From NCBI GenBank assembly GCA_021841935.1, contig JAKCDL010000017.1, forward strand, positions 1 to 45,468: a stretch of DNA of 45,468 bases, in the 5' to 3' direction. Below are positions 947-39,951 of this stretch, in pieces (the stretch's first letter is position 1; every line of letters starts with the position of its first letter). The notes under the pieces are model-generated. The model searched no databases and had not been told where the DNA came from. It saw nothing but the letters and a program-made list of their open reading frames with translations. This DNA is from Actinomycetes bacterium (GTDB lineage: Bacteria; Actinomycetota; Acidimicrobiia; Acidimicrobiales; Acidimicrobiaceae). The position numbers and the translations under genes were made by a program.

Positions 947-3454
947 ATGAGCATTTTGGGGTTATTTCGAGTCAGGAGCCGTTCAATCAAACCCCAAAAA
1001 AGTTCGAAACGACTTTTGGTTACGCTTTCGGGGCTCGCGTTGACACTCTCATCGTGCTCAATTCCACCCCTAAAAATCCCCACGATTCACTCAACGAATC
1101 CACAAACCTTTGCGCAGATCTCCTCAATCTATGCAGCAGATGGCTCTCTATTGACTCAAGTTCCAACGGACATGGTACGAGTCCCCGTGGACCTCTCTCA
1201 GATGGGGACCTTGGTTCCCGAGGCCACCGTAGCAATCGAAGATAAACGCTTCTGGCTTAGGGGACCGATCGACGTTAGGTCAATTCTCCGAGCCGCAGTT
1301 GCCAACTTTAGCGCCGGAGGAATCGCTCAAGGTGGCTCAACGATAGAGGAACAACTTGTCAAGCTTGAATTAGGAACTCCTAAGAGAACACTCTCTGAAA
1401 AAGTCCACGAAATTCTTCTCTCACTTGGATCTTTGACAGGAACGACAAAGAGCCAAGTACTGGATAAATATCTAAATGACGTCTATCTCGGCGAAGGAAC
1501 CTATGGCATCTACAGTGCCTCAATTCGCTACTTTGGAGTACCGCCGACGTCCCTGGATCTACCTCAGGCGGCTACCTTAGCGGGACTGATAAATGCACCT
1601 TCCGCATACGACCCCCTACTTCACCCACAACTTGCAACTCAGCGCCGAGATCAAGTTATTCAAGCTATGTACTCACAGGGCCTTATTTCAAAGTCACAAT
1701 TCGATCAAGCAGAGGCTGCATCATTGGAGCTAAATCCCTCCACTTCGCTTCTTTCACCCAAATTGGACTACTTTACCCAAGCAGTAATAGCAGAAGCGGA
1801 GACGCTACCTCAGCTCGGCTCTGATCCAGCTCAACGCCTCGCCGCCCTTGAACACGATGGACTTCACATCTACACCACGGAAAATACCATCCGTCAAGCA
1901 GAGGCTCAAAGTGCAGTCGTCGATGGTCTACCAAAGAATATTCAAGATATAAGCGGAGCTCTCGTATCGATCGATCCATCGACTGGAGCAGTTGAAACTA
2001 TAGTCGGCGGAAGAGGATTCAATAGTAACGCACCCTACTCGCAGTACAACATTGCCGTTCAGGCGCAAAGGCCAGCTGGTTCGACGATGAAGATCATCGC
2101 ATTGGCAGAGGCACTTACGCAAGGGATAGCGCCTACAACGATCTTCAAGGCGCCAGCCACGCTAACGATTCCTGCCGGAAATGGCCAAAACGCATGGACG
2201 GTTTCTAACTACGCTGGAGAGGCCTCCGGCGCCATGACATTGGCGACCGCAACGGCGCTCTCCATTAACACCGTTTACGCACAGGTAATGCAAAGAATTG
2301 GCCCAACCAACTTTGTCGCCATGGCTCACGCAATGGGGGTCAGAACTCATCTATACCCTTACATCTCCCTGGTTTTAGGGGACCAACCGGTATCGCCAAT
2401 CGACATGGCTTCGGTATATGCCACAGTCGCTAACTATGGGGTATATAACCCGCCCTATACAATCAGTGAAATTACTGGCCCGAGTGGAACAGTCATCTAC
2501 CAGCACAAACCGACGCCGTCTGTTGCTATATCTCCAGTGGTAGCAGCGAAGATGATCCCGATACTTCAGTCAGTCATGACCGAAGGAACAGGGGTATACG
2601 CAGCCATTAACAGACCAGCAGCCGGCAAGACGGGAACGGGAGAGAATTGGACTGATGCTTGGTTCGATGGATTCACCCCTCAACTTGCGACCGCTACTTG
2701 GGTAGGATTTCCATCCGGCGAGGTACCTATGATTCCGCCGAAGACCCCGATCTACGTAGTTGGAGGGAGCTGGCCCGCATACATCTTTGCAAAATACATG
2801 ACGAGTGCACTATCTGGGACGCCGATTGAATACTTCAAGTCGGTGGCACAGATCGAGGCTTCCACGACTACTTTGCCACCACAAACTACCACCACAACGA
2901 CCCAACCAATCAACACCGTTACCCTAAATAACGTCATCGGAGAGACCCAAAACGACGCAATAGCCTCCCTTAATGCTCAAGGGCTAAAGATCTCAACCTC
3001 TTTTGCACCCTCTGGCGAATATCCTCCTGGATATGCAATAGCGGAGAGCCCACCACCAGGGAGCCAGCTTTTGAAGGGAGCATCCGTTTCCGTGACAATT
3101 GCGAACGGGTCACTCACCTTCCCAAATACAGTTCTGGTACCCGATCTCCTCGGGCTATCGCCGAACCAAGCAGCATCAGTAATTGCCTCTTTGGGACTAA
3201 AGGGAACATGTACAGCGTCTCCGACTACCACTACTACTTCAACAACCTCAACTACTATGGCTCCTCCTACTACTTCCACCACAGCTGTATCAAGTAGCTC
3301 ATCTTCATCGACCTCAAGTACCGTTTCTAGCACTTCAACTTCAACCACACTCCCAAGTACACCCGCAACGACATTGCCAACAGCTGTGAGCGAGCAGTCT
3401 CCAATCCCGGGGACACAGGTTCCCGTTGGAACATTGGTCACCTGTAACTACTGA
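947..3454 (+). CDS. Class A penicillin-binding protein with PASTA domains
   Basis: A bifunctional peptidoglycan glycosyltransferase/transpeptidase of 835 residues that builds cell-wall glycan strands and cross-links them outside the membrane. The GT51 domain spans about residues 55-270 (catalytic E98-D99, then GGSTIEEQ at 129-136 and a YLN motif near 175). The transpeptidase domain spans about 330-625 with STMK at 379-382 (nucleophile S379), SIN at 439-441 and KTG at 561-563. Two PASTA-like repeats follow a Thr-rich linker: one at about 657-720, the second starting at about 727 but interrupted by a Ser/Thr stretch (roughly 757-812) before its last strand. The N-terminus is a hydrophobic segment ending in LSSC (34-37), which fits a lipobox rather than a plain anchor. 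The ATG has no clear Shine-Dalgarno site. The enzyme class is secure; its physiological role is not known. Confidence 0.93.
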   Translation: MSILGLFRVRSRSIKPQKSSKRLLVTLSGLALTLSSCSIPPLKIPTIHSTNPQTFAQISSIYAADGSLLTQVPTDMVRVPVDLSQMGTLVPEATVAIEDKRFWLRGPIDVRSILRAAVANFSAGGIAQGGSTIEEQLVKLELGTPKRTLSEKVHEILLSLGSLTGTTKSQVLDKYLNDVYLGEGTYGIYSASIRYFGVPPTSLDLPQAATLAGLINAPSAYDPLLHPQLATQRRDQVIQAMYSQGLISKSQFDQAEAASLELNPSTSLLSPKLDYFTQAVIAEAETLPQLGSDPAQRLAALEHDGLHIYTTENTIRQAEAQSAVVDGLPKNIQDISGALVSIDPSTGAVETIVGGRGFNSNAPYSQYNIAVQAQRPAGSTMKIIALAEALTQGIAPTTIFKAPATLTIPAGNGQNAWTVSNYAGEASGAMTLATATALSINTVYAQVMQRIGPTNFVAMAHAMGVRTHLYPYISLVLGDQPVSPIDMASVYATVANYGVYNPPYTISEITGPSGTVIYQHKPTPSVAISPVVAAKMIPILQSVMTEGTGVYAAINRPAAGKTGTGENWTDAWFDGFTPQLATATWVGFPSGEVPMIPPKTPIYVVGGSWPAYIFAKYMTSALSGTPIEYFKSVAQIEASTTTLPPQTTTTTTQPINTVTLNNVIGETQNDAIASLNAQGLKISTSFAPSGEYPPGYAIAESPPPGSQLLKGASVSVTIANGSLTFPNTVLVPDLLGLSPNQAASVIASLGLKGTCTASPTTTTTSTTSTTMAPPTTSTTAVSSSSSSSTSSTVSSTSTSTTLPSTPATTLPTAVSEQSPIPGTQVPVGTLVTCNY

Positions 3455-22445: not shown

Positions 22446-22628
22446 TTGACGAGTTATTTTTCCCCGATTATCTTTGTAGCTACTGCAATCTTCTTTGACA
22501 TATCGGCTTACGATATTGCAAGAAAAATAGAGCTGATTAGCCCCACGATATCCTCCTTTTTCGCTTCAAGACACCTAACTCATCTCGGAGACGATTCGAA
22601 GTCAGCAAAAAGGGAAGGGGGACTATGA
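22446..22628 (+). CDS. Possible small leader protein before the hydrogenase-like operon
   Basis: A 60-codon frame starting with TTG encodes one hydrophobic segment (FSPIIFVATAIFF, residues 5-17) and a polar tail. Its TGA overlaps the ATG of the next gene (ATGA), the same coupling used between most genes of this operon. It is not recognisable, and there is no good ribosome site for its TTG. Its end also encodes the Shine-Dalgarno sequence of the next gene. It may be a coincidence of an open frame; low confidence. Confidence 0.25.
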   Translation: MTSYFSPIIFVATAIFFDISAYDIARKIELISPTISSFFASRHLTHLGDDSKSAKREGGL

Positions 22629-23137
22629 CTATACGCCCCGTCTCAAAGGTCATCTTAAGTAACCTTGCATCCCAAGGCAAAGGGGCCCGGACTTCAACTA
22701 GCCCCCATAACGCCGAAGATAAATTGCCGAAGAGGTGGTTATCTCGGGCACTCAACGTTAGATACGTTGACGCCGGAGGGGGCCAAGATTGTGCAAATGA
22801 ACTGAACCTAGCATTTGGTCCCGACTATGACCTTGAAAGGTTAGGAGTCCGACTCGTCGCATCCCCTCGCCACGCCGATCTTCTACTTGTTGCGGGATGT
22901 GTAACAACGAAGATGGCCTCACCTCTTGAGATGACCTATAACGCAATTGCCAAACCTAAGCTCGTGGTGGCATTTGGTGACTCAGCTATCACCGGTGGTC
23001 CTTTTCTAGAGGCAAAACACTGTTTCGGAGCAGTTGAATCTGTGATACCGGTTGACTTTAGTATCCCCGGCGATCCTCCATCTGCAGCCGAGGTGGTTGA
23101 CTTTTTTTACCAGCTGACGGGGCGAATTCCAAAATGA
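22625..23137 (+). CDS. NuoB/HycG-like small subunit lacking most Fe-S cysteines
   Basis: A 170-residue protein with the complex I NuoB / hydrogenase small-subunit fold. Recognisable segments are RYVDAGGGQDCANELNLAF, LGVRLVASPRHADLLLVAG, KMASPLEMTYNAIAKPKLVVAFGDSAITGG and VIPVDFSIPGDPPSA. The proximal [4Fe-4S] ligands of the family should be the two Cys of D-x-G-x-C-x-x-C, the Cys of GDC and the Cys of PGC. Here they are G53, C56, S120 and D150, so three of four are lost. The start has a very strong site, AGGGAAGGGGG at 22611-22621. Its stop overlaps the next gene by ATGA. It probably keeps a structural role linking the HycE-like subunit to the membrane arm. Confidence 0.85.
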   Translation: MTIRPVSKVILSNLASQGKGARTSTSPHNAEDKLPKRWLSRALNVRYVDAGGGQDCANELNLAFGPDYDLERLGVRLVASPRHADLLLVAGCVTTKMASPLEMTYNAIAKPKLVVAFGDSAITGGPFLEAKHCFGAVESVIPVDFSIPGDPPSAAEVVDFFYQLTGRIPK

Positions 23138-25146
23138 GTTCACTCGTTATGCTCCTGCTAGCAATCTTTTTGGCCGCCCTAGTTGTGGGGGTACTCCCTA
23201 TTTCAGGCAAGCTAAAGGTCACAGCAACCTCAAGCCTCAACCTTCTCTTTTCTGCAACCGGAGTCGCAGTAGCCCTCGTTGGACTTGTCGATACGAAGCA
23301 AACTCACTTCGTGTTGCGACTTGGATACCAATGGTTGTCCTTAGGTATTTCTCTTACAAAACTTGGCGCACTTTTTTTACTTCTTGTATCTTTCGTTGCG
23401 GCGACGACTTCTATCTATTCAATATCGTTACCCCCAACGCCAGCCGTTACCTCGTCATCTCTTGCACGATCGACATTCATCTTTTCGATGATGGGGGTGG
23501 TTTCGGCATCGAATGCGCTGTCATTCACCTTTGCATGGGAGCTAATGACAATCAGTTCAGCCGTACTCGTCGCAAGTGATGTAAAAAAGTATCCCTCATC
23601 ACGCAGCGCCTTACTGTGGTATTTGACCATGTCACAGATGAGCGCCATCTCCTTGATACTTGGATTTTCGTCGATTTCATCGACCAGATCCTTAGGCAGT
23701 AGCTCCCTTTGGACCTCATTTGCATTGTCATCCAATGCTCCGAAGTCAGCTTTGGGAGTTGGACTGTTGCTATTCGCCTTTGGAATCAAAGTGGGCTTAA
23801 TTCCCGTACACGTTTGGCTTCCAAAGGCTCACCCGGCGGCTCCAGCAGAGATATCGGCCCTCATGAGTGGTTCGATGGTCGCGATGGGCGTTTATGGAAT
23901 GATCATTACAGTAACTAACTTTGGTGGCGACAGATCGATCTACTGGGGAGAAGCCCTCATCATCGTTGGCGCAATGACGGCGATCTATTCGATAATCAAA
24001 GCTGCGATTGAAGACGACCTAAAGGTACTTTTAGCCCAGTCGACCAGTGAAAATATGGGTCTGATAGCCGTTGGAGTCGGAACCTATATCTGTGATATAA
24101 GATTGCAAGATAGCTTTGCTGCTAATTGCGCGCTACTCGCAGTTATCCTCCTCACCTTCGCACACGCCTTCTTCAAACAGATCCTCTTTATGGCCGCAGG
24201 ATCGATCTATAGCGCCACAAAAACTAAGAGAATAAATGAACTCGGCGGCTTAGGTTCAAGGATGAAGTTCTCGACGTCTACATTTTCCCTAGGTGCGATT
24301 GGCGCGGTTGGCCTACCGCCATCATTGACCTTCGTCGCCGAATGGTTGCTACTTCAGACCCTCTCTCATTCAACGGCCTTCAACTCTAAATCATCGGTCG
24401 CCCCAAAGATACTGTTTCCCCTAGCAATAGCTGCAATTGCCCTCACCACTGGCATAGCCGTAGTGACATTTACCAAGATCGTTGGAGTCGGATTCTTGGG
24501 CCTACCGCGAACTTCAAAGGCCAAGAGTGCTGTTGAAGTCTCTAGAAGTACTCTGATTGCACCCTTGGTAGCTGCCACCTTTATCTTTGCCCCTGCGATT
24601 GCCATTGGTTATGTAGCTCGGGAGATCGACAGTGTACTTCATCTCAATCTCTCGCTATCTTCGCAAGGTAACTTCACACTAAGTCTTCCCCTCTTCCACG
24701 CCTCAATAACACCGTTGGCAATTGCGGCAATCTTCATATGTATCGGGGTCGTCGTTGGAGGAATAACGAAGGCTACAGGTCGATCAAAGCAAGCACTACC
24801 GGCGCAATATCCCTGGGGGTGTGGCCAAATCGCTATCGACTCAACCTTCCAGACAAGTGGATCTGGATTCACAGAGCCGATTCTTCGCATCTTCGACGAC
24901 GTTATAAATCCAGGTAGGGACGTTCAAGTAAGCCACGAATCGGAGTCTTTTTACTTTGCACAACGCCACCTTAACGTAGGCAGTGCATCTACCGATCTCT
25001 TTGAAATCAGGTTACTTAGACCTACAATATCTGCGATCGAAAAAGTCGCCAACAGGGCGCGAAGAATTCAAGGTGGAAGTATTCATCTCTATCTGATCTA
25101 CGCCTTTATCGGACTGATTGTCGTTATCTCAATAGCGAGTCTGTGA
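23134..25146 (+). CDS. HyfB/NuoL-type proton-translocating membrane subunit
   Basis: A 670-residue polytopic protein with about 15 membrane segments, from the Mrp antiporter / NuoL family and closest in pattern to HyfB of group 4 hydrogenases. The pumping residues are present: E136 in FAWELMT, K219 in FGIKVGLIPVHVWLPKAHPAAPAEISALMSG with its His residues, and a later K/E pair in DDLKVLLAQSTSENMG. The C-terminal part contains WGCGQ near residue 560 and a final membrane helix after IQGGSIHLYLIY, as in HyfB. It overlaps the previous gene by ATGA and is followed seven bases later by the HycD-like gene. Confidence 0.9.
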   Translation: MSSLVMLLLAIFLAALVVGVLPISGKLKVTATSSLNLLFSATGVAVALVGLVDTKQTHFVLRLGYQWLSLGISLTKLGALFLLLVSFVAATTSIYSISLPPTPAVTSSSLARSTFIFSMMGVVSASNALSFTFAWELMTISSAVLVASDVKKYPSSRSALLWYLTMSQMSAISLILGFSSISSTRSLGSSSLWTSFALSSNAPKSALGVGLLLFAFGIKVGLIPVHVWLPKAHPAAPAEISALMSGSMVAMGVYGMIITVTNFGGDRSIYWGEALIIVGAMTAIYSIIKAAIEDDLKVLLAQSTSENMGLIAVGVGTYICDIRLQDSFAANCALLAVILLTFAHAFFKQILFMAAGSIYSATKTKRINELGGLGSRMKFSTSTFSLGAIGAVGLPPSLTFVAEWLLLQTLSHSTAFNSKSSVAPKILFPLAIAAIALTTGIAVVTFTKIVGVGFLGLPRTSKAKSAVEVSRSTLIAPLVAATFIFAPAIAIGYVAREIDSVLHLNLSLSSQGNFTLSLPLFHASITPLAIAAIFICIGVVVGGITKATGRSKQALPAQYPWGCGQIAIDSTFQTSGSGFTEPILRIFDDVINPGRDVQVSHESESFYFAQRHLNVGSASTDLFEIRLLRPTISAIEKVANRARRIQGGSIHLYLIYAFIGLIVVISIASL

Positions 25147-25153
25147 GGATCAG

Positions 25154-26092
25154 GTGACTCTAAAGATAATTTCTTCAATCCTTCAATGCGTTGTCGTAGT
25201 TGCGCTCTCTCCTCTTCAAATTGGCCTGATTCGAGCTACAAAGGCGAGGCTAGAAGGGCGAAGCGGCGGACGGCTACTGAGACCTTGGCGAGAGATCTCA
25301 AAGCTCATGAGAAAAGAGACGATACGCTATGGCGTCGGTTCTTCGATAATGGCAGCTGCTTCGATCGTTACCCTTAGCTCATCGCTAGCCTTAGCTCTTA
25401 CGGTACCGTCGCTCCTTCAAAATTCAATTATCAGACCAGATCTATTTGTCATCGTTTCGATACTCACAATTGGTGCAATTTCACAAGGTATGGTGGGACT
25501 AGCTAGCGGGACCTCCTTTGGCGGGATGGGATCGAGTCGTCACCTCACTCTTCTAGCACTCACCGAGCCGACACTTCTGATCTCCATCTACGCACTCTCG
25601 ATAGCGAGCCACACAACCGATCTCGCAAAGATAATCCAACTTCGAGCCCTTCATCCCATTGAAGTAGTTTCGCCCGTTGGAATCTTGGTCGTTGCATCTC
25701 TAGTGATAGCTGTCCTCTCTGAGACGGGGCGACTGCCGATCGATAATCCCGCAACGCACCTCGAATTGACCATGATTCACGAAGCGATGACCCTCGAGAG
25801 CTCTGGGCGCGATCTTGCCTTTCAAGAACTTGCCTCATCGATCAAGCTAACGGTACTAACTTCTCTTTTGGCAAACTTACTAGTCCCGTGGCCAATCGAG
25901 CCTTCGATCTCTCTAGGTATAGCCCCCGCAATCTTCGCCCTCTGTCTCAAGATCGCCGTCCTGAGTATCGCCCTATCCGTAGGTGAGACATTCTTAGCTA
26001 AAGTTCGACTATTTCGGGTGCCTGAACTTCTAGCTGGGTCGCTAGCAATCGCGTTCATCGCAGTAATTGTCTCGGGGGTGACGACAATATGA
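25154..26092 (+). CDS. HycD/NuoH-type membrane subunit
   Basis: A 312-residue protein with about eight membrane helices that anchors the peripheral arm in NuoH/HycD-type complexes. The family motif ETGRLPIDNPATHLELTMIHEAM (from about residue 190) carries the acidic and Arg residues that line the quinone-like cavity and channel entrance. LRPWREISKLMRKETI near residue 40 is also conserved. It starts with GTG after GAGGATCAG. Its end overlaps the next gene by ATGA. In true hydrogenases it couples electron transfer at the small subunit to ion movement; here the redox partner seems incomplete. Confidence 0.92.
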   Translation: MTLKIISSILQCVVVVALSPLQIGLIRATKARLEGRSGGRLLRPWREISKLMRKETIRYGVGSSIMAAASIVTLSSSLALALTVPSLLQNSIIRPDLFVIVSILTIGAISQGMVGLASGTSFGGMGSSRHLTLLALTEPTLLISIYALSIASHTTDLAKIIQLRALHPIEVVSPVGILVVASLVIAVLSETGRLPIDNPATHLELTMIHEAMTLESSGRDLAFQELASSIKLTVLTSLLANLLVPWPIEPSISLGIAPAIFALCLKIAVLSIALSVGETFLAKVRLFRVPELLAGSLAIAFIAVIVSGVTTI

Positions 26093-26763
26093 CCTTCTTC
26101 CTTCAACTTTGTGCTGGAACGCTACTTATAAGTACCATCGTTATCGTTTGGCGTAGGTCACTAAAGAGTACGGCGAGACTTCTTTCTATTCAAGGTCTCG
26201 CGTTGGGCTTTGGGCTATTTGCAGTGGAGGTGACGAGGGGCAACTCTCTAGGAGTTGCAATTTCGCTCACAGTCTTGGCCCTCAAGGCCTTTGTACTGCC
26301 GCTTCTTATTCAACGAAGACTAAAGATAATCAACCAAGATTCAAGGCCTAGCGATCCTTCAAATAACGAGCTACGGGACGACACCTACTTAAATCCCACG
26401 GCTGGAGTCTTCATTTCGGCACTTCTGATCGGCGGAGCCTTCGTGGTTACTGGGCCACTCTTCACTAACACCGGATCAACTTCGTCATACTTAGCTCCGA
26501 CGGGTATAGCAATAGTATTGATAGGATTCCTAATAATCTCATCACGACGACGAGCCATATCTCAGCTCATTGGCTTCGTGGTAGTTGACAACGGCATAAC
26601 TGCAACTGCCCTCTTCGTCTCTGGCGGCGTGCCGACCCTTGTTGAGCTGTCATCCTCGGTCGACGTGCTCTTAGTTGTACTCATTCTTCAAGCCTTTACT
26701 TATCGCCTACGCGATCACTTTGGCCACACTGACATAAGCCAGCTACGAAATCTGCGAGACTAA
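26089..26763 (+). CDS. HyfE-type membrane subunit
   Basis: A 224-residue protein with six or seven membrane helices and the HyfE pattern, whose second half is NuoK-like: GFVVVDNGITATALFVSGGVPTLVELSSSVDVLLVVLILQAF. The usual E-N-G-I is D-N-G-I here, while the Glu in PTLVEL is kept. The C-terminal tail ends in LRNLRD, as family members end in a similar short charged motif. It overlaps the HycD-like gene by ATGA, and its TAA overlaps the ATG of the next gene (TAATG). Confidence 0.88.
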   Translation: MTFFLQLCAGTLLISTIVIVWRRSLKSTARLLSIQGLALGFGLFAVEVTRGNSLGVAISLTVLALKAFVLPLLIQRRLKIINQDSRPSDPSNNELRDDTYLNPTAGVFISALLIGGAFVVTGPLFTNTGSTSSYLAPTGIAIVLIGFLIISSRRRAISQLIGFVVVDNGITATALFVSGGVPTLVELSSSVDVLLVVLILQAFTYRLRDHFGHTDISQLRNLRD

Positions 26764-28286
26764 TGAACTACCTACTGATCATTCCATTAATTACAGCGGC
26801 GTTAGCCATTGCCGCGACCTTTAGCGCTCGGTCGAGTGCTTTAAATCAGTACGCTCCGATCTTTACCGGTGCAATAACATTTATCACCGGCCTATACCTA
26901 GTCGCCACTCTTCATCGCACAAACATTTCATTCGGGGGAGTACTTCGAGTTGATCCCCTTAGCGCATGGATGCTCATGACAGTTGGAGCAGTAGGGCTAG
27001 TCGCCCTTGGATCTGGGCTGCGAGGAGGCATCGATCGTGGCTATAGCTCACTACTGAACTGCTTCCTAGCTGCAATGTCACTCGCAGTCGAAGCCGATAA
27101 CATCGGAGTTATGTGGTTCGCTATCGAAGCCACCACAGTTGCCACTGCATATTTAGTGAGTATGTCTGGAACAAAGAAATCTGCTGAGGCGGCATGGAAG
27201 TATGTGGTAATTGCCTCGAGTGGTATCGCGATTGCTCTTTTGGGAGTTGTGATAATCTTTGGCGCGAGCAAGGGTACTACCATCTCCTGGATATCCCTCA
27301 TGAGAGACCACGGACTCAACCAAGGCCTTCTTCGCCTTGGACTTTCACTTAGCGTCCTTGGCTTTGCAACAAAGGTCGGGCTCTTTCCGATGCATAGCTG
27401 GCTCCCAGATGCCCACAGTCAATCTCCTGCGCCTGTCTCTGCATTGATGTCTGGAGTATTGCTTTCTGTCGCTCTCTACTTGATAGTGCGAATGAGGTTG
27501 ATAAGCGAGATAAGCCTAGCAAATACAGAGATCAAGGGACTACTTATTGCAATAGGGGTTGGATCTATAGGAGTCGCATCGCTCTTGATGGTACGTCAGA
27601 GCGATATCAAGCGACTTCTCGCCTATTCCTCGATGGAACATATGGGGGTTATGGCAATTGGAGTAGCGATCGGCAAGGACGCACTACCAGCTGTGATGAC
27701 CTATATCCTCGCCCACGGACTAATCAAAGCATCCTTATTTGTCTTGGCCGGTCGATTGGTTAGCAAAACCGGTACCAGCGACATATCTGAGTTAGCCAAG
27801 TCGCATAACATTACCGGGGCAACAAAGTACCTGATGATACTTGGGTTGATCGGCCTCCTTGGACTTCCACCATTTGCGATATTTCTAGCCGAGGTATCAA
27901 TTTCTATCAACGGATTTACCCACGGTATGGCAATCTTCATCGTCCTGTCGTTTATCTTCGCATTGGTTGCATTTTCATCAGTGGTTCGCTCAACGGTACA
28001 ACTAGCCTTTGGCAATGGGCCAGACGATTACCCATCAATAGCGCTAGGTATCGACCAATCTCTAATCAACGATTCAATAACCAAGAGTGGCTCCGAGGTT
28101 CCTAGTTACGTTAAGACTTCGACAAGCAAAGTCGAATCCAAACAATCAAGACCAAGTCGCATTCGAATCGCTGATCTCACAGTCGCAACGGCCTTGATAG
28201 CCGCTCTTGTTTTTCCGCTACTCGATGCCAGTTCGCAACGGGCAATTGAAGCTACCTTGTCTGCACTTACCGGAGGAGCAAGGTGA
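26763..28286 (+). CDS. HyfF/NuoN-type proton-translocating membrane subunit
   Basis: A 507-residue polytopic protein of the Mrp/NuoLMN family with about 14 membrane segments. The pumping residues are intact: E122 in WFAIEATT, K204 in ATKVGLFPMHSWLPDAHSQSPAPVSALMSG, and the SDIKRLLAYSSMEHMG and HGLIKASLFVLAG motifs later. A charged stretch of about 60 residues before the last helix is longer and more polar than usual. It corresponds to the second antiporter-like subunit of the complex (HyfF/HycQ). Its end overlaps the next gene by GTGA. Confidence 0.92.
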   Translation: MNYLLIIPLITAALAIAATFSARSSALNQYAPIFTGAITFITGLYLVATLHRTNISFGGVLRVDPLSAWMLMTVGAVGLVALGSGLRGGIDRGYSSLLNCFLAAMSLAVEADNIGVMWFAIEATTVATAYLVSMSGTKKSAEAAWKYVVIASSGIAIALLGVVIIFGASKGTTISWISLMRDHGLNQGLLRLGLSLSVLGFATKVGLFPMHSWLPDAHSQSPAPVSALMSGVLLSVALYLIVRMRLISEISLANTEIKGLLIAIGVGSIGVASLLMVRQSDIKRLLAYSSMEHMGVMAIGVAIGKDALPAVMTYILAHGLIKASLFVLAGRLVSKTGTSDISELAKSHNITGATKYLMILGLIGLLGLPPFAIFLAEVSISINGFTHGMAIFIVLSFIFALVAFSSVVRSTVQLAFGNGPDDYPSIALGIDQSLINDSITKSGSEVPSYVKTSTSKVESKQSRPSRIRIADLTVATALIAALVFPLLDASSQRAIEATLSALTGGAR

Positions 28287-29722
28287 CAACTTTAGTAAGT
28301 AGGAAAATAGAGCCAACTGAACTTATCGAAGCAGCGTCAAAGCTTAGAGATAACGGATATGAGCTTATGATGATCGCTGCGTCATCTTGGCCTGAACCAA
28401 TGCAGCTCCACTACATCTTTGCCCTTCTCGATGGGGAAGGTAAAGAGATCGTCGATCTCACCGTCTCGCTCACATCCAACCAAAGGGTCGCGATCACAAG
28501 TCTCGGGGAGATCTTTCACGCATCGATGCGAAGTGAGAGCGACATAGAAAAAAGGTCGATGGGACTAATTAGATTTCGAAGCTCAAATGATCAACCGCCG
28601 ACCCCGGTATCGCTCGGAGGGGCGAGTGGCATCAGTCAAATTCCCGTCGGACCCGTCCACGCGGGTGTAATTGAACCCGGTCACTTTCGCTTCACAGTCG
28701 TTGGTGAATCGATATTGACCTTAGAGGTCGAATTAGGGTTCCTAACTCGCGGAGTGGAAGAGGAGTTCATCGGCAAGACCCTAAACGAGGCTCTTTCCCT
28801 AGCTGAACACATAACCGGAGACTCAATCATCGCCCACGGCTTAGCTCTTTTGAAGGCCCATGAGTCGAGCAAGGCAATTGAGGTAAGCGAAGCTGAAAAA
28901 ATCAGGCGCTCTCTCCTGCTCGAACTCGAACGAGTTATCAACCACATAACTGATATCGGCGCACTTGCAAATGACGCCGCATTTGCCTTGGCTAACTCCC
29001 AAGCTCTAAGGATTAGAGAGAGGGTTTCAAATATCAACCATCGCCTCACGAACCACAGGCTTTTGCGTGGTGCCCTGAGTGCTAAAGGCACGACCATTAG
29101 GGAACTTCCCTCCCATGAGGCTATCGCGGGGCTAAAAGATGACATTGCGGAAGTAGTTAGCCTCGTAGAGGGACATGGAATCGTTCACGATCGAATGCAG
29201 GGTACTGGCTTCCTATCAAAGCCAGATGCCAAATTCTTCTCAACTAGAGGATACGTCGCACGCGCATCAGGCTACTCCTGCGATCTTCGCACCTACCTCC
29301 CCTACAACCACTTCGAGGAAGACTACCAAGAGGTCCTCGAGGTCACTGGGGATGTTATGGGGAGGTTTAGGGTAAGAGCTCGCGAGGCACTTACCTCCCT
29401 TGATCTAATAGAGTGCTACGTCGAATACCTTCAAGAGATGGCGACAACCGAAGATGCTCCTATTTTCATAGAAGACGAAGGGGGTTCAGCTAAATCCCCC
29501 AGCCCTCAAGGATTTGGTTTTGGCTGCGTAGAGGGGTGGCGAGGAGCCACTAGTTACTTCGTTGAAGTCGATGACTCCGATCTCATCTCGCGGATAACGA
29601 TAGTTGACCCATCAGCCAACAATTGGAAGGCTCTACCAGTAGCGCTTCATAATTCCATCGTTCCCGACTTTCCACTAATCAACAAAAGCTTCAATCAGTC
29701 TTACGCAGGTAACGACCTCTAA
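28283..29722 (+). CDS. HycE-like subunit lacking all four nickel-site cysteines
   Basis: A 479-residue fusion of a NuoC-like part (about 1-105) and a NuoD/hydrogenase large-subunit part (about 120-479). GPVHAGVIEPGHFRF at 123-137 is the family hallmark. The first metal motif of true enzymes, E-R-I-C-G-x-C-x-x-A-H, reads EHITGDSIIAH at 175-185, with Cys replaced by T178 and S181. The second motif near the C-terminus, C-x-x-C, reads SYAG at 473-476. No [NiFe] site can form, so it is not a hydrogenase. It starts with GTG inside the end of the HyfF-like gene. It ends the operon. I recall the same six-gene order in Mycobacterium tuberculosis Rv0082-Rv0087. The function is unknown. Confidence 0.9.
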   Translation: MTTLVSRKIEPTELIEAASKLRDNGYELMMIAASSWPEPMQLHYIFALLDGEGKEIVDLTVSLTSNQRVAITSLGEIFHASMRSESDIEKRSMGLIRFRSSNDQPPTPVSLGGASGISQIPVGPVHAGVIEPGHFRFTVVGESILTLEVELGFLTRGVEEEFIGKTLNEALSLAEHITGDSIIAHGLALLKAHESSKAIEVSEAEKIRRSLLLELERVINHITDIGALANDAAFALANSQALRIRERVSNINHRLTNHRLLRGALSAKGTTIRELPSHEAIAGLKDDIAEVVSLVEGHGIVHDRMQGTGFLSKPDAKFFSTRGYVARASGYSCDLRTYLPYNHFEEDYQEVLEVTGDVMGRFRVRAREALTSLDLIECYVEYLQEMATTEDAPIFIEDEGGSAKSPSPQGFGFGCVEGWRGATSYFVEVDDSDLISRITIVDPSANNWKALPVALHNSIVPDFPLINKSFNQSYAGNDL

Positions 29723-30328: not shown

Positions 30329-33300
30329 TTGTCTGTTGCTACCCCATCGATCACATCTGCCCTCAACGACTCACCAATAAGACGCTTTCATCTTCGAACC
30401 GCTGCGATTACCAGCGTTGGTTTCTTCACCGACGCCTACGACCTCTTTGTGATTGGAACCGCCTTAGCGCTCCTAAAAGGTCCCTGGCACCTAAGCGCGT
30501 CGAACATTGCCAAGGCCAGTGCAATCTCGCTCCTCGGAACAGCGATTGGCGCACTCGTTCTTGGATACCTCAGTGATCGCTACGGTCGCAAAAAGCTATA
30601 CGGACTTGAATCGTTAATCATGGTCATCGGTGCCTTAGCCTCATTTTTGGCAAATGGAATCGAGCCCTTACTTATCGCAAGGTTCATCCTTGGCATTGGG
30701 ATCGGCGGCGACTATCCAGTTTCGGCGGTTTTGATGGCGGAGTACGCAAATACAAAGAATCGAGGACGGCTCGTCTCGGGAGTCTTCTCTGCTCAAGCTT
30801 TGGGGCTCATTGTTGGCCCTTCCATCGCCCTCCTTCTACTTACGACCCATCTTTCGCACGTTATGGATGCGAAGATCCTCCTTGGTGCTGGTGCTGTGCC
30901 GGCAGCATGCGTCCTTTACTTCCGTAGAAAGATGCCAGAGTCACCTAGGTTTACAGCCAAAGTCCTAGGGAAGAACGAACTTGCAATAGAAGAGATAAAT
31001 TCATTCTCAGATGGATCGATAGTCGCCCTCCCCTCAAGTGGTCAACGCCAGAAGATAGGGATTCTAAAGTTTCTGTCTAACCCTCACTACCTTAAGCTCT
31101 TGCTAGCTACAGCAGGGTCGTGGTTCTTTCTCGACTACGCCTACTACGGAAATACGATTTCAACTCCTTTAGTACTAGGGAAATTGTCACCGAATGGTTC
31201 TATCTTTTCGCACACCCTTACCAACCTCTTAGTCTTCGTAGTAGTTGCAGTGCCTGGTTACATAATGTCGACTCTGTTCCTCGATCGAATTGGCCACCGA
31301 CGCCTACAGCTAGTTGGCTTCTTTGCGATGGCAGTAATCTTTACCTCGCTCGGCGCCGTCTCAGCATCCCTCGCTAACGCTGACGTCTTTCTACTACTCT
31401 TTGCTGCATCATACTTTTTTATCGAATTTGGACCGAATGTAACCACATTCGTCATCCCCTCTGAGGTCTTTCCAGTCGGAGCTAGAGGAAGCGGTCACGG
31501 CATTTCATCGTCGGTTGCAAAGATAGGAGCCTTTATCGGCGTCTATGCCTTTCCTATGATTTCACATGACCTAGGAATCAAAGGAGCCATCCTCTTCTCA
31601 GGCATCGCCGCCATAGCAGGCCTTGGTCTAACGCTCATATTGCCAGAGCCGGCACGTCGAAGCCTCGAAGAGGTATCAAACGAGGACGACGTAGCTTCCC
31701 TTCTAGCAGAGAGCGCCTATGCACTTGCCCTTGAACGAGATGAGAGACGTCGAGCAGAGCTACTCGCGGAGGCTGCAGGGGAATTTAGCAAGCGACTTGA
31801 GGAAGATACTCTCATTTCAATATTCGCAAACCACGCCAAGGCTGCGATCGGAGCCACCTATTCACTGTCACTTCATTTAGAGGCACGAAGCGGCGCAATA
31901 CTAAACGCCAGTGGCAATACTGAAATTCTGAAACGTAGCGTGGTGGAAAAGAGTATCGACCAACTTGGATTGGTTTCATTCAGCCTCATTCGCACTCCTC
32001 AGTACCTACGTCGAGAGGAGTTCACCCAAGCCCTTAGTGAAATTTTGAATAACGATATCCTAGGGGCATTCATCGTAAGTATTCGTACAAACCATCGAAC
32101 TTATGCAATTACAATTTGCGCCGATCGCTTTGTTCGGCGTAACACTCATCGTGAGGTCGACTCCCTTTCAGCCCTTCAAAGCCAAGCAGAATCAGCCCTC
32201 GAAAACGCAGCACTACACCGTAAAGTATCGGAGGCTGAGAGCCGCTACCGTACCCTCGTTGAGCAGATTCCAGCTGTTCTTTACATTGAAACTACCGACG
32301 TCGAGCCAAAGATGACATATGTCTCTCCTCAGATCGAACGGCTAACTCGAATCCCTGCAAGTGATTTTCTAACTCAAAACTCCCTCAGGACTGCCATAAC
32401 TCACGAAGACGACAGGGAGATCCTAAGGAAGGCCCGCGGTGGACTAATTGACGGGGCGATCGACTACTCCATTGAATATAGGATCGTCGACTCCAGCGGA
32501 CACGAAAAGTGGGTACGAGATGACGCGGTGGCGATAAAGAGTTCCGAGGACGAAGTACTCGCAATACAGGGGATACTTTCTGACGTCACCGAAAGAAAGA
32601 TAGCAGAAGCGCAAGTAACGAACTTAGCATTTTCTGATCCACTAACTGGACTTGCAAACCGACGGTCGTTCATCGAGGCGACGGTGAGAGCGATTGAAGA
32701 GGCAGCTAGAAACAAAACCTCGTTCATAGTCCTCTTCCTCGATTTAAACAAGTTCAAGGCTATCAATGATGGTTATGGCCATAAAGCTGGCGACGAACTC
32801 TTAGTGGAGGTTGCAAAGAGGTTACACGGCGGTATTCGCCAAGGCGACATAGTTGCTCGACAGGGTGGAGATGAATTTCTCATACTGCTGCGTGACATAA
32901 AGACAGATGGAAGCGCTGACGACAGAGACAAAGTGGCCCTTGCAGCAATAAACCGAATTAGGGACAACTTCAAAGAGCCATTTGAATTGAGCGAAAGCAC
33001 CGTCACTATGACATCTTCTATAGGAGCATCGATCTACCCTTACGATGGGATGAACCCCTCTGAGCTAATTGAGAGCGCCGACTCTTCGATGTATAGGGAC
33101 AAGCAAACGGGTAACCCAAAGATCAACAAGGGGTTCAAAGCAGTCTCGTCGAATGCTAGAAATACCCTTTTCCTAGCGAGCCGCCTTCGATCGGCTCACA
33201 AGAACGATGAATATGAGCTCCTTTATCAGCCAATTGTCAATCTATTAACCGAAGAGACCGTAGCAGCTGAGGCGCTAATTCGCCTAAAGGAAGCCGATGG

Positions 33301-33958
33301 GAGCCTCCTATCACCTGCTGAATGGCTATCGATAGCAGAGGACATTGGAGTGATGGAGGACTTAGTCTCCTGGACCCTTGAAAGGGTATGCCAAGACCAG
33401 ATGAGTTGGAAGAGTTCGGGGATCAATACCTGCGTGAGCGTCAACCTCTCTCCACGACAGATCCGAAGTGGCGAATCGATGAAGAGGCTCAAATCAGATC
33501 TAGAAGTCCTCAGTCTACTACCGTCAATGCTGAGCTTCGAGATCACTGAAAGTTCTCTACTCGATCATGACCCATGTGTTCTTCAGACGATTGACGAGCT
33601 ACGGGATAAGGGATTTACCTTTGCCATCGACGACTTTGGCACCGGGTACTCTTCACTCTATCGCCTCAAATCTCTGCCATTTGACGCCATCAAGATCGAT
33701 CGATCATTTATAAGCGACATCGACGATGAAAAGGGGCGAAGGCTCATAAGTGCCATAATTTCGATAGCGCATGGCCTTGAGATAGACGCCGTAGCCGAAG
33801 GCATTGAGCGGGTCGAACAGCAAAAGGCTCTCATCGATCTAGGGTGCAACCTTGGGCAAGGGTACCTCTTCGGCCGTCCTTCGAGCGCAATGGAATTTGC
33901 CTCTAACTTCAAAAATATCGCCATGAACAAGCGTCTAGAGATAGGGATCTCGAAGTAG
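30329..33958 (+). CDS. MFS transporter fused to GAF-like, PAS, GGDEF and EAL domains
   Basis: One uninterrupted frame of 1209 residues. Residues 20-440 are a 12-helix MFS transporter with phosphate:H+ symporter (PHS) features: GFFTDAYDLFVI at 31-42, GIGIGGDYPVSAVLMAEYA at 122-140, ESPRFT at 204-209, and FIEFGPNVTTFVIPSEVFP at 364-382. A charged helical linker (441-485) leads to a GAF-like region (about 485-630), then a PAS domain with PAC tail (about 636-758). The GGDEF domain (765-935) has GGDEF at 846-850 and an RxxD inhibitory site at 837-840. The EAL domain (945-1205) keeps EAL at 981-983, N1039, E1071, DDFGTG at 1101-1106, K1122 and E1157. It could both make and degrade c-di-GMP. TTG is the only possible start, after an in-frame stop. 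The transported substrate is inferred. Confidence 0.93.
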   Translation: MSVATPSITSALNDSPIRRFHLRTAAITSVGFFTDAYDLFVIGTALALLKGPWHLSASNIAKASAISLLGTAIGALVLGYLSDRYGRKKLYGLESLIMVIGALASFLANGIEPLLIARFILGIGIGGDYPVSAVLMAEYANTKNRGRLVSGVFSAQALGLIVGPSIALLLLTTHLSHVMDAKILLGAGAVPAACVLYFRRKMPESPRFTAKVLGKNELAIEEINSFSDGSIVALPSSGQRQKIGILKFLSNPHYLKLLLATAGSWFFLDYAYYGNTISTPLVLGKLSPNGSIFSHTLTNLLVFVVVAVPGYIMSTLFLDRIGHRRLQLVGFFAMAVIFTSLGAVSASLANADVFLLLFAASYFFIEFGPNVTTFVIPSEVFPVGARGSGHGISSSVAKIGAFIGVYAFPMISHDLGIKGAILFSGIAAIAGLGLTLILPEPARRSLEEVSNEDDVASLLAESAYALALERDERRRAELLAEAAGEFSKRLEEDTLISIFANHAKAAIGATYSLSLHLEARSGAILNASGNTEILKRSVVEKSIDQLGLVSFSLIRTPQYLRREEFTQALSEILNNDILGAFIVSIRTNHRTYAITICADRFVRRNTHREVDSLSALQSQAESALENAALHRKVSEAESRYRTLVEQIPAVLYIETTDVEPKMTYVSPQIERLTRIPASDFLTQNSLRTAITHEDDREILRKARGGLIDGAIDYSIEYRIVDSSGHEKWVRDDAVAIKSSEDEVLAIQGILSDVTERKIAEAQVTNLAFSDPLTGLANRRSFIEATVRAIEEAARNKTSFIVLFLDLNKFKAINDGYGHKAGDELLVEVAKRLHGGIRQGDIVARQGGDEFLILLRDIKTDGSADDRDKVALAAINRIRDNFKEPFELSESTVTMTSSIGASIYPYDGMNPSELIESADSSMYRDKQTGNPKINKGFKAVSSNARNTLFLASRLRSAHKNDEYELLYQPIVNLLTEETVAAEALIRLKEADGSLLSPAEWLSIAEDIGVMEDLVSWTLERVCQDQMSWKSSGINTCVSVNLSPRQIRSGESMKRLKSDLEVLSLLPSMLSFEITESSLLDHDPCVLQTIDELRDKGFTFAIDDFGTGYSSLYRLKSLPFDAIKIDRSFISDIDDEKGRRLISAIISIAHGLEIDAVAEGIERVEQQKALIDLGCNLGQGYLFGRPSSAMEFASNFKNIAMNKRLEIGISK

Positions 33959-36575: not shown

Positions 36576-37040
36576 TTATCGACTCTTCCCGATTCTAAAT
36601 GCGAGTGAAAGAACGATATCAAGGCTCCTTCGCACCTCGGGGGTTCTCGCCTTTTTGAGAAGTTGCCTCAAAGATGGTGGCTCACCTCTATCGAGTGCCT
36701 CAGATGCCCCTCCCAAGCCATCGCTCAGGGCCTTTAGAATTCGAGGATCGAGGTTGCCAGCTATCGATAGAAATCGAACGAGGTTCTCTACTCCCTGACG
36801 AGTCTTCTCGTTATTCATCTTTTCGAGGATCGCCGATCCGGCGTCACAACCCTCTTCTAGGATTCCATTGAGGAGATCGATTAGATCTGAATCTCGAAGG
36901 TTCTCGATCAACCTAGCAAGTTGATCGATTTCGACCTGGTCATAGTTGATCGGCGGTCGTAACGCAGCGATGTTTTCTAAACCAATTGGCTGTGCCACCT
37001 TAGAGTCCCCCTCGTCTTCTAGGCGCTGCGACGAAGACAT
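36576..37040 (-). CDS. DUF1641 protein, formate dehydrogenase partner
   Basis: A 154-residue helical protein of the DUF1641 family, like YjgD of Bacillus, whose genes stand next to YjgC-type formate dehydrogenases. The core is LRDSDLIDLLNGILEEGCDAG, then TRQGVENLVRFLSIAGNLDPRILKALSDGLG, and a last part with PSLRQLLKKARTPEVRRSLDIVLSLA. The ATG at 37040 is inside the fdhA coding sequence, with AAAGGGA six bases upstream, so the genes overlap by 41 bases in different frames. A role in assembly or in linking the enzyme to a partner is inferred; no metal ligands are seen. Confidence 0.8.
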   Translation of the reverse strand: MSSSQRLEDEGDSKVAQPIGLENIAALRPPINYDQVEIDQLARLIENLRDSDLIDLLNGILEEGCDAGSAILEKMNNEKTRQGVENLVRFLSIAGNLDPRILKALSDGLGGASEALDRGEPPSLRQLLKKARTPEVRRSLDIVLSLAFRIGKSR

Positions 37041-39951
37041 AATCGTCCCTTTGCCACTTTCGTTCTATCTCGACACCACTCTGTGGATGTCGAATTGCAT
37101 TTCTAAAGTTCTTCTTCGGAAGTGGATTCTCTCCGCTAACGGAGAGTACCTCCATCTTCACTGCCAACTCTTTATATGCCGGGGTGTGAGTCGTTCTGTC
37201 GGTATGGGACGACGTGAGTACATTGATAGCAGAGTCGTTGTCTCCACTGTTCATTGGCATGTACAACTCTTTGCCACTCACCCTAGTAGTAACCAAGACT
37301 CTCGCCTTTATCTTGCCACGCCGTGAGACTAGGCGAACTAACGATCCGCTTTGGACTCCTCGCTCGGCGGCGAGTTCAGGCGAAACTTCGACAAATGTAC
37401 CCGGCGTCCTAGATCGAATTCCCTCAGACTTGAAGGTCATATTCCCCTCATGGAAGTGCTCTAGTAGCCTTCCATTGTTAAGGTGAAGGTCGAATTCATC
37501 ATCTACGACCTCGCTTGGCTCGATGTAGGTGACGCTATGCAGCTTGGCTCTGCCATTATCAAAGCCAAACCCATCAAGAAACAGAAGCGGCGTATCCTTC
37601 CCGTCGCGAGCCACTGGCCACTGCAGCGAATCGAAGCCCTGCAAAAGGTCGTATGAGACTCCAGAGAAGATCTTAGCCAGCGATGCCGCCTCGGCCATTA
37701 CATCAGCCGGACTCTCATAACTCCAATTTGCTCCAAGTGCATTGGCTATAGCAATTGTCCAGATGTAGTCGGGGTGTGATTCGCCGAGTGGATCAAGGGC
37801 GGCGTAGAGTCTTTGAATACGTCGTTCAGTGTTGGTAAAGGTGCCATCTTTTTCTAGGGACGGAGAAGCGGGCAATATTACATCTGCAAATTGCGCAGTC
37901 TTTGAGAAGAAGATATCTTGTACTACGAATAGATCAAGGCGCTCAAAGGCTCCCTGTACGTGAAGGGCGTTCGCATCTACGAGGCCCATATCCTCTCCAA
38001 TTAGGTAGAGGCCCCGGAGCGATCCGCCATAGATAGCATCTACCATCTCATGGTTGTCCAAGCCCTTCTCTGAGGGAAGTTCGCTACCCCATCCAGCTGA
38101 CCACTTAGCTCGGATGGCGTCGTCACTTACAAACTCATACCCGGGGAATCGATCTGGCATGGCTCCAAAGTCTGATGCACCTTGGACGTTATTATGGCCC
38201 CTCAACGGATATGATCCAGCCCCCTCGCGGGCATAGTTGCCAGTAACCAAGAGGAGATTAGATATAGCAGTTGAAGTATCCGAACCACCATTGTGCTGAG
38301 TTACGCCCATAGCCCAACAGATAGCAACACCATCAGCTGAAACTATCTCTTCAGCTACTGCCTTTAGCTCTTCGACTGAGATAGAGGTCAACTTAGCTGT
38401 ACTCTCCAAGTCAAATGGCGCTAGGGATGCGTAGTATTCATCGAAGTTATCGACGTGGCCATCGATAAAGTCGACGTCATGGCGGTTGGTATCGATGATG
38501 TACTTTGTAACAGCACTCAACCACGCTATGTCGCTACCTGGATTTGGGTGAATGAAGATATCTGCGCGTTCAGCCATCTCATGGCGGCGAAGGTCTGCGA
38601 CTATCAATCTTTTGCCACCGCTCTTATGAGCCCTTTTGATCCGCGTTGCAATGACTGGGTGGCTCTCTGCAGTATTTGAACCCACGATGATAACAAGGCC
38701 AGCCTTCTCTAAATCCGTTATCGATCCAGAGTCGCCGCCGATTCCAACGGTTCGCCACAGTCCAACTGTTGCAGGTGATTGACAATAACGAGAGCAGTTG
38801 TCGACGTTATTAGTCCCAACGACGGCACGAGCCAACTTTTGCATCAAGTAAGACTCTTCATTGGTGCACTTTGAAGATGAGATAAATCCAAGGGCATTTG
38901 GCCCCGACTCATCTTTGATCATCTTCATTCTCTCTGCTACGTAAGCCACGGCCTCCTCGAAGGTAACCTCTTCAAAGTGGTCACCTCGCCTGATCAAAGG
39001 CTTGGTGATCCGCTCCTTGGAGTTCACGTAGTCCCATCCGAACTTACCCTTGACACATGTCGATATTGCATTAGCAGGACCATCGGAGGGTTCTACTTTT
39101 ACAATCTTTCGACCCTTGGTCCATACCTCAAAGGAGCAACCGACGCCACAGTAGGTACAGACCGTCTTGGTCCTCTTTATCTGCGCCTTTCGCAGACGAG
39201 ACTCAGCCTCAGAGATTGCCATTACGCTTTGGATAGAAGTAGCGGGCTCGGCGGCCTTTGTAAGGGCGATCATTGGATCTTTCATCGTCTCTGGTAGCGA
39301 CGATAGGTAGCCGACCTCCTCCAACATCGACTTTTCCATTAGCGCGTTACATGGGCACACAGTTACACAGTGGCCACAACCAACGCACGAGGACTCACCC
39401 GCCGGGACGTCACTATCCCAAATGACCCTCGGACGTTCTCTCTCCCAATCGATAGAGAGGGTCTCATTTACCTGCAACTCTTGACAGGCTTGGACGCAGC
39501 GCCCACAGAGGATGCACTGATTTGGGTCATACCTGTAAAAGGGGTGGGATGCATCTATCGCATAGGGCTTCTTTTCAAACTCATAGAGTGGGTGGGCGAT
39601 CTCAGAGGCTGCGACTGTGTTGTGGACCACGCAGTTTCCATTGTTATTTTCGCAAAGGGTGCAGTAGAGGTCGTGGTTCTTTAGAATCCGACTTATACCT
39701 TCGAGTTGTGCCCCCTTTGCCTTTGTCGACTTCGTATCGACTACGAGCGATGCCCTTACTACACTTTCGCAACTTCTGACTAACTCGCCGCCAACCTCAA
39801 CGATACAAGTGTCACAGCTTCTGATAGGACCTAGAACTTCGTTGTAGCAGATCTGAGGAAGATCTGTTACGACACGGTTGATGGCACGTACCAGCAGTTC
39901 GCCATCTTGAGCTGCCACCTCTTTGCCATCGATAGTGATTTGGACTTCCAA
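37000..39951 (-). CDS. Formate dehydrogenase alpha subunit (YjgC type)
   Basis: A 983-residue cytoplasmic molybdo- or tungstoenzyme expected to oxidise formate to CO2. Cofactor sites in order: [2Fe-2S] Cys 35, 46, 49, 61; a His/Cys [4Fe-4S] site with H93, C97, C100, C107; two ferredoxin clusters at C146-C156 and C189-C199; the Mo-domain [4Fe-4S] at C265, C268, C272, C299; then the molybdopterin domains to the C-terminus. The Mo ligand is C390 in NCSRYCQSP, a Cys and not selenocysteine, followed by Gln instead of the His of well-studied enzymes. As I recall, this is typical of the YjgC branch. Start TTG with AGG seven bases before. The DUF1641 gene follows with overlap, and mog is divergent. 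Confidence 0.9.
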   Translation of the reverse strand: MEVQITIDGKEVAAQDGELLVRAINRVVTDLPQICYNEVLGPIRSCDTCIVEVGGELVRSCESVVRASLVVDTKSTKAKGAQLEGISRILKNHDLYCTLCENNNGNCVVHNTVAASEIAHPLYEFEKKPYAIDASHPFYRYDPNQCILCGRCVQACQELQVNETLSIDWERERPRVIWDSDVPAGESSCVGCGHCVTVCPCNALMEKSMLEEVGYLSSLPETMKDPMIALTKAAEPATSIQSVMAISEAESRLRKAQIKRTKTVCTYCGVGCSFEVWTKGRKIVKVEPSDGPANAISTCVKGKFGWDYVNSKERITKPLIRRGDHFEEVTFEEAVAYVAERMKMIKDESGPNALGFISSSKCTNEESYLMQKLARAVVGTNNVDNCSRYCQSPATVGLWRTVGIGGDSGSITDLEKAGLVIIVGSNTAESHPVIATRIKRAHKSGGKRLIVADLRRHEMAERADIFIHPNPGSDIAWLSAVTKYIIDTNRHDVDFIDGHVDNFDEYYASLAPFDLESTAKLTSISVEELKAVAEEIVSADGVAICWAMGVTQHNGGSDTSTAISNLLLVTGNYAREGAGSYPLRGHNNVQGASDFGAMPDRFPGYEFVSDDAIRAKWSAGWGSELPSEKGLDNHEMVDAIYGGSLRGLYLIGEDMGLVDANALHVQGAFERLDLFVVQDIFFSKTAQFADVILPASPSLEKDGTFTNTERRIQRLYAALDPLGESHPDYIWTIAIANALGANWSYESPADVMAEAASLAKIFSGVSYDLLQGFDSLQWPVARDGKDTPLLFLDGFGFDNGRAKLHSVTYIEPSEVVDDEFDLHLNNGRLLEHFHEGNMTFKSEGIRSRTPGTFVEVSPELAAERGVQSGSLVRLVSRRGKIKARVLVTTRVSGKELYMPMNSGDNDSAINVLTSSHTDRTTHTPAYKELAVKMEVLSVSGENPLPKKNFRNAIRHPQSGVEIERKWQRDDYVFVAAPRRRGGL

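Follow-up and report, generated by a model that had tools for sequence, protein, structure and literature searches.

The window analysed here comprises 45,468 nucleotides of contig JAKCDL010000017.1 (positions 1 to 45,468, forward strand) from the draft genome of an Acidimicrobiaceae bacterium (assembly GCA_021841935.1, here G000; 2.53 Mb, 30 contigs, 86.6% complete). One gene of this window encodes a carrier of the major facilitator superfamily (MFS), assigned by sequence to the phosphate:H+ symporter (PHS) family, which continues in the same chain into signalling domains that end in a GGDEF-EAL pair of the type predicted to make and degrade cyclic di-GMP (c-di-GMP). The same fusion is found at the same locus in a separate genome of a sister species (G001, database locus L077), and a third congener (G008) is available for comparison. 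The gene stands alone, 606 nucleotides past a hyf-like cluster and with the next gene on the opposite strand; its parts are listed in Table 1.

Table 1. Positions of the fused gene, its parts and its upstream element in the window.
Feature	Residues	Window position	Strand	Basis
Conserved element CTAAATCCAACTAA, 72-85 nucleotides 5' of the start codon		30244..30257	+	Exact match here and in G001
Fused gene: MFS (predicted PHS family) - linker - GAF-like - PAS - GGDEF - EAL		30329..33958	+	TTG start, 1209 residues; same frame and order in G001
MFS domain, predicted PHS type, all 13 PiPT residue equivalents kept	20-440	30386..31648	+	Pfam, NCBIfam, PDB search, residue mapping
A181-K182 (W-R in 102/102 stand-alone rows)	181-182	30869..30874	+	Alignment; by motif, W215-R216 of AtPHT1;1
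Linker, including the SLEE-type end; 93% identical in two species	441-485	31649..31783	+	Alignment
GAF-like region	486-635	31784..32233	+	hhalign 78% over the last 55 columns; without Pfam GAF match
PAS_3 domain	663-749	32315..32575	+	Pfam
GGDEF domain (RxxD 837-840, GGDEF 846-850)	767-929	32627..33115	+	Pfam, motif check, structure-chain alignment
EAL domain, presumed catalytic motifs intact	952-1184	33182..33880	+	Pfam, motif check, structure-chain alignment

Organization and conservation of the fused gene

The gene is a single open frame with no internal stop codon, and an in-frame TAA lies two codons 5' of its TTG start. A TTG occupies the equivalent place in the sister gene, and the sequence AGGGA is common to both upstream regions. 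Gene and window hardly differ in GC content (0.495 and 0.490). A domain search of the encoded protein reveals Sugar_tr at residues 25-451 (177 bits), with MFS_1 having its best stretch at 29-370, followed by PAS_3, GGDEF (150 bits) and EAL (220 bits), and the domain limits in the sister protein are nearly identical. A frame that is long by chance is ruled out, since every named domain has a significant match of its own. The open frame and the PAS, GGDEF and EAL matches confirm the claim of a preliminary description of this DNA that a transporter passes in one frame into signalling domains; no stop codon or frameshift, which that description had named as the event that would break the claim, lies between the halves, and the sister genome agrees.

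On the cyclase side, the protein contains RQGD (RxxD) at residue 837 and GGDEF at 846, and on the EAL side EAL at 981, N1039, EITE at 1071, DDFGTG at 1101, K1122, EGIE at 1157 and QGY at 1177. All of the motif residues that we take to be catalytic are present and are conserved in G001 by alignment, and the RxxD inhibitory site, likewise claimed beforehand, is intact by motif check. Among solved structures, a GGDEF-EAL chain, 4rnh ("motility regulator", presumably MorA), can be aligned with the C-terminal half at E 2.7e-80. The protein has the motif set of bifunctional GGDEF-EAL c-di-GMP enzymes, and both activities are predicted.

The region between the linker and the PAS domain had been described as GAF-like. 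The region has such an outline, and the name is kept; with E values up to 10 allowed, Pfam yields no GAF match in about residues 486-635 of the window protein or of its sister. The lone Pfam match in this part of the window protein is the unrelated HDC (E 0.097). An hhalign comparison with four putative GAF stretches aligned the last 55 columns with a probability of 78%, and only two of these four stretches have a Pfam GAF match themselves. No relative of the region besides itself is found in 397 genomes of the order (G001 is not in those listed), and in a search with the stretch from linker to PAS in 60 genomes, G001 alone matched before about residue 583.

The fused proteins of the two species are 76% identical overall. 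Identity is 82% in the MFS part, 75% in the GAF-like region, 70% in PAS, 77% in GGDEF and 70% in EAL, and is highest in the linker: the top of the 1165 windows of 45 residues start at 438-440, with an identity of 0.956 against a mean of 0.768. The proportion of differences at synonymous sites is saturated (pS 0.74-0.89) while that at nonsynonymous sites is low (pN 0.06-0.19 across the parts), for which reason every part of the fused gene looks to be under purifying selection. The second genome with the same junction and the saturated synonymous sites rule out an assembly chimera. Because the sister species carries the same fusion at the same locus, the fused gene is real and selected, and is not an assembly error.

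In G008, the neighbours on both sides are found in the same order, and the fused gene is absent between them. Within the 0.8-kb gap, a 60-residue stretch with a stop inside is still similar to the last part of the EAL domain (residues 1112-1171, 33% identity). It scores 39.7 bits, and the highest score among 200 shuffled copies is 25.0. The decayed EAL-end-like remnant lies at the syntenic place (locus L263, about 3040-3225; G008:C5). Because it remains in the gap, we consider it probable that G008 has lost the gene, or as a minimum an EAL gene at this place, and that the other two species did not acquire it recently.

The carrier part and its stand-alone relatives

The best NCBIfam transporter model for the MFS part is TIGR00887, the phosphate:H+ symporter (290.8 bits over residues 18-452). 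In the PDB, rice PHT1;11 and the 7sp5 group of phosphate transporters match best, and other MFS chains score far lower. By its residues the 7sp5 group appears to be PiPT; the 7sp5 chain was read with an offset of 2, the offset that places all 13 named PiPT letters correctly. A hydropathy scan of the window protein merged segments, and the predicted number of twelve helices comes from the alignment with PHS-family structures. For PiPT, 13 residues of the pocket for inorganic phosphate (Pi) and of the proton path are described (PMC6761603). All 13 are identical in the fused protein (D35, D38, E94, R118, D128, Y129, F153, Q156, W265, D269, Y273, N370 and K398), which strengthens the phosphate-symporter-type assignment in the preliminary description. 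The MFS part is thus classed, by its sequence match over the MFS fold, as a putative member of the PHS family, with Pi:H+ transport as the predicted function.

A quick tree of 104 MFS sequences was built from the two fusions and 102 stand-alone rows, which include near copies. The fusions form one clade (Shimodaira-Hasegawa-like approximate likelihood ratio test 100), and the stem of this clade is 2.22 changes per column long. E94 is E in 61 of the 102 stand-alone rows. At 11 positions that are at least 90% identical among the stand-alone rows, both fusions differ, and two of these positions, W181 and R182, are absolute in the stand-alone rows and are A and K in both fusions. Mapping to AtPHT1;1, which is our own and uses the rice alignment and the D-x-x-W-R spacing, places the pair at W215-R216. 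In AtPHT1;1 these lie on the extracellular side at transmembrane helix 6 (TM6) (PMC6761603). The conserved D212/R216-type network of AtPHT1;1 is not found in the fusions, in which W-R is replaced by A-K; position 178, the D212 equivalent, is D in 51 of the 102 rows and V in both fusions. In AtPHT1;1, R216A retains 40% of activity in yeast and gives no complementation in planta (PMC6761603).

The SLEE end of the family is kept in the fusion and runs directly into the linker. E504A of AtPHT1;1 also fails to complement in planta, and a model links E504 to the cytoplasmic A-motif network (PMC6761603); by our motif alignment, E504 would fall in the SLEE end, next to the start of the linker. A physical path from the SLEE end into the linker is plausible, in which the signalling segment would begin at the carrier end that moves during the transport cycle.

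The MFS part was used as a query in 60 relatives (threshold 1e-20), 395 genomes of the class and 396 genomes of the phylum (both 1e-30, with four candidates scored per genome); these sets overlap. Matches are found in 32 of the 60, 32 of the 395 and 32 of the 396 genomes, and the frame runs on into the signalling part solely in G000 and, where drawn, G001. A scan of database contigs, from which the best 80 of 579 relatives were kept, gives the same picture: a long tail (765 residues) is present in the G001 gene alone, and the other 79 have tails of at most 60 residues. C-terminal tails measure 3-58 codons in 44 stand-alone loci (L011-L028 and L047-L072, some genes being present twice), and matches without a locus were judged by frame length alone. 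Among these best 80 of 579, stand-alone forms occur in Acidimicrobiaceae, Alicyclobacillus, Acidithiobacillus, Desulfosporosinus acididurans and others, and many belong to acidophiles by name. Their recurrence in acidophiles (by name) of several phyla (L078-L156 and L160), together with one carrier on a plasmid of Acidiphilium cryptum near a Tn3 transposase, suggests horizontal spread of the stand-alone carriers.

Several candidates for further fusions were rejected. The long MFS frames of the phylum sample, G808 (1067 codons), G1017 (891) and G1002 (674), have the MFS part at the C-terminus, preceded by a frame that by eye resembles GC-rich read-through, and the longest other frame of the class sample, G255 (642 codons), has an N-terminal extension. 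Plasmid matches H1, H2 and H4, which span MFS and EAL, consist of separate frames (H1 and H2 by frame analysis; H4 by annotation, with EAL before MFS), and no single place covering 80% of the query is present among the plasmid matches listed (5000 records). For a precursor made of neighbouring but separate MFS and EAL genes, no enrichment is seen: a GGDEF/EAL match lies in the flanks of 4 of 79 non-fused loci, close to a rough expectation from 15 EAL matches per 2.53 Mb, although the methods differ. A scan of viral contigs with the C-terminal half of the window protein alone yields 0 relatives; with an alignment query it yields 235 GGDEF-EAL relatives, of which 80 were kept and used solely for alignment.

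A transceptor-type reading and its alternatives

The fusion unites a transporter fold and a signalling output in one chain, as in transceptors. Pho84, a PHS protein of yeast, is described as a Pi transceptor in which mutation can separate transport from signalling (PMC5159500). We give about an even chance to the reading that the fused protein is a single-chain, transceptor-type c-di-GMP enzyme in which phosphate- and proton-driven states of the MFS core would bias synthesis against breakdown, and we infer that ligand binding at the transporter would change signalling. The preliminary description had already proposed a transceptor, and the conserved linker, the purifying selection, the complete Pi/H+ site and the change of the invariant pair add to this idea. 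The presence of a Pst system in G000, in which no PF01384 (Pit) match is found, also counts in its favour. Pi, perhaps with protons if the habitat is acidic, would bind the PiPT-like pocket, and switching among outward-open, occluded and inward-open states would move the SLEE/A-motif lock on the cytoplasmic side, where the linker originates. The GAF-like region and the PAS domain, which may contribute a further input from the cytoplasm, would then relay the movement to the GGDEF-EAL pair, and the balance of c-di-GMP synthesis and breakdown would shift. Transport itself may be slow or altered, with the invariant Trp-Arg being Ala-Lys, as would be expected in a move from carrier to sensor. Our guess for the sign of the output is net phosphodiesterase activity at low Pi.

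A more specific proposal, which we advance tentatively and at somewhat below an even chance, is that a PHS carrier has turned into a dedicated one-protein receptor that signals phosphate (and pH) through c-di-GMP and would be the bacterial equivalent of Pho84. Its pocket and its proton relay would have been kept, the W-R pair lost and the SLEE end extended into a putative fixed signalling helix, and one polypeptide would cover every step from extracellular Pi to the second messenger. Because two related species keep the gene under selection, its product probably connects a nutrient outside the cell with lifestyle signalling in a single protein. If the transceptor-type reading is true, c-di-GMP would be set by Pi status with no kinase, response regulator or transcription in between. 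A carrier pocket and a measurable enzyme output in one gene would make it possible to ask directly in vitro whether a transceptor signals by occupancy or by turnover, and the 102 stand-alone rows and two fusions, which differ at the invariant Trp-Arg pair, offer a ready mutational handle.

The fusion resembles Pho84, PiPT and PHT1 (PHS family, TC 2.A.1.9) in its MFS domain with all 13 listed PiPT residues, and differs from them in the A-K pair at the TM6 W-R; Pho84, moreover, signals to protein kinase A. To our knowledge, none of these three carries a fused signalling enzyme. The C-terminal half is like that of MorA-type GGDEF-EAL enzymes, as the 4rnh alignment indicates, and we know of no full transporter in front of MorA. 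CbrA (SLC5-STAC-PAS-histidine kinase) has L-histidine transport and kinase activity (PMC7096432) and, like the fusion, joins a complete transporter to cytoplasmic signalling modules via a coupling element; its STAC domain is proposed from structure to be a docked relay of transporter motion (PMC13022988). Unlike the fusion, CbrA has an SLC5 fold, a STAC coupling domain and a kinase output instead of c-di-GMP. The ammonium sensor histidine kinase of Kuenenia stuttgartiensis also uses a transporter domain as the sensor of a fused signalling protein (PMC5764959), with an Amt domain and again a kinase output, and in other bacterial cases a transporter is paired with a separate kinase or fused to one (PMC7096432). 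A transport-system domain does occur in c-di-GMP proteins in the form of PTS_EIIC and PTS_EIIA_1 of the phosphotransferase system, which are described as rare, are treated as phosphoreceivers (PMC8846402), and are neither MFS nor a Pi:H+ symporter. Receptors with the 5TMR/S-component fold, often found with PAS, GGDEF and EAL, have a fold related to a transporter subunit (PMC11109136), and this is a related fold only, whereas the MFS domain of the fusion shares about 50% identity with stand-alone carriers.

The preliminary description had contrasted this protein with the usual membrane GGDEF-EAL proteins and knew of no characterised protein of the same architecture. The contrast holds in general, with PTS_EIIC as a reported rare transport-system domain that qualifies it (PMC8846402); "MFS" does not occur in the main text of that review by term search. 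With regard to the architecture, no MFS-GGDEF/EAL protein was found in the open-access literature by titles, abstract starts and term counts among the matches listed, in agreement with the earlier statement. Under a strict definition that excludes bridging soluble domains such as STAC, a 2024 paper describes the membrane transceptors on record as exclusively eukaryotic (PMC11109136). Transporter-sensor fusions are known already, and what is new here is the carrier family and the output, in two draft genomes.

Several observations weigh against the transceptor-type reading. The TIGR00887 score lies below the curated cut-off of 610.3, and long stems are also found elsewhere in the tree (2.15 in a stand-alone paralogue clade and about 1.3 in two proteobacterial clades). 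Lysine in place of arginine at 182 is a conservative change, and the replacement of W by A alone is no proof of lost transport. The absence of a second PHS copy from both fused genomes at 1e-20 and that of a PF01384 (Pit) match from G000, the only one checked for it, are provisional, the genomes being 86.6% and 89% complete. The fused gene is known in two species and was apparently lost by a third, so it is dispensable, and it adjoins the hyf-like cluster across the 606-nucleotide gap with no phosphate genes alongside. The linker helix and the GAF fold are putative, and the evidence from Pho84, PiPT and AtPHT1;1 is eukaryotic. L-Histidine has no significant effect on the activities of CbrA (PMC7096432), and ligand control is therefore not shown for CbrA either.

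Control may also run in the reverse direction, from the cytoplasmic part (through local c-di-GMP, GTP or a PAS ligand) to a working Pi:H+ symporter that is itself no sensor. The retention of all listed pocket and proton-path residues, as in a working carrier, is consistent with this, as are the absence of another PHS copy and of Pit and the cytoplasmic input that PAS and GAF-like modules would supply. However, GGDEF and EAL motifs that are both intact and conserved exceed the needs of a binding-only module, and the near-invariant pair is lost in the carrier and not in the enzymes, and we consider this direction unlikely. A transceptor for another ligand, such as another anion, an organic acid or simply external protons, accords with the score below the TIGR00887 cut-off and with the amount of change on the stem, and many stand-alone relatives come from acidophiles by name, so H+ could be the cue; with 13 of 13 listed PiPT residues kept and phosphate transporters as the best PDB matches, it is rather unlikely.

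Many GGDEF-EAL proteins function with simple membrane anchors, and the MFS part might serve as a mere anchor for a bifunctional enzyme, with no signal between the halves. An anchor, however, has no need for a full Pi/H+ site under purifying selection or for a linker that is the best conserved window, which makes this explanation improbable. A chimeric assembly, read-through or a decaying gene might be suspected from the 30-contig draft and the decayed remnant in the third congener, but the same junction in two genomes, the saturated synonymous sites and the lack of stops in effect refute this for both genomes.

Upstream element and genome context

The element CTAAATCCAACTAA has an exact match in 2 of 41 genomes, at one site each: here and at C87:15361-15374 of G001, upstream of the same gene. 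The remainder of the upstream region is by eye poorly conserved between the two species, and the element is a possible promoter or regulator site.

The hyf-like cluster (window 22625-29722) contains, by eye, NuoB-like and HyfB/C/E/F/G-like genes. Its large subunit (28283-29722) matches Complex1_49kDa and has three cysteines only and no CxxC; the cluster apparently encodes a hydrogenase-related complex without NiFe ligands. An FdhF-like gene lies nearby at 37000-39951. Just upstream of the hyf-like cluster in G001 (L074, 4037-8719) is a 1560-codon frame with a GGDEF-like end by eye, and no such long frame is present at the matching place in the window.

Because 15 EAL matches are present in G000, c-di-GMP is very probably in use in the source organism. 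Elsewhere in this genome, a pstB-like gene (339.9 bits, just under the cut-off of 343.2) is followed by pstS, pstC and pstA by eye. A PilZ-domain gene lies on the opposite strand directly after these pstB-pstS-pstC-pstA-like genes (L250, 6499-11539; G000:C19), and this neighbourhood is a possible second link between phosphate and c-di-GMP.

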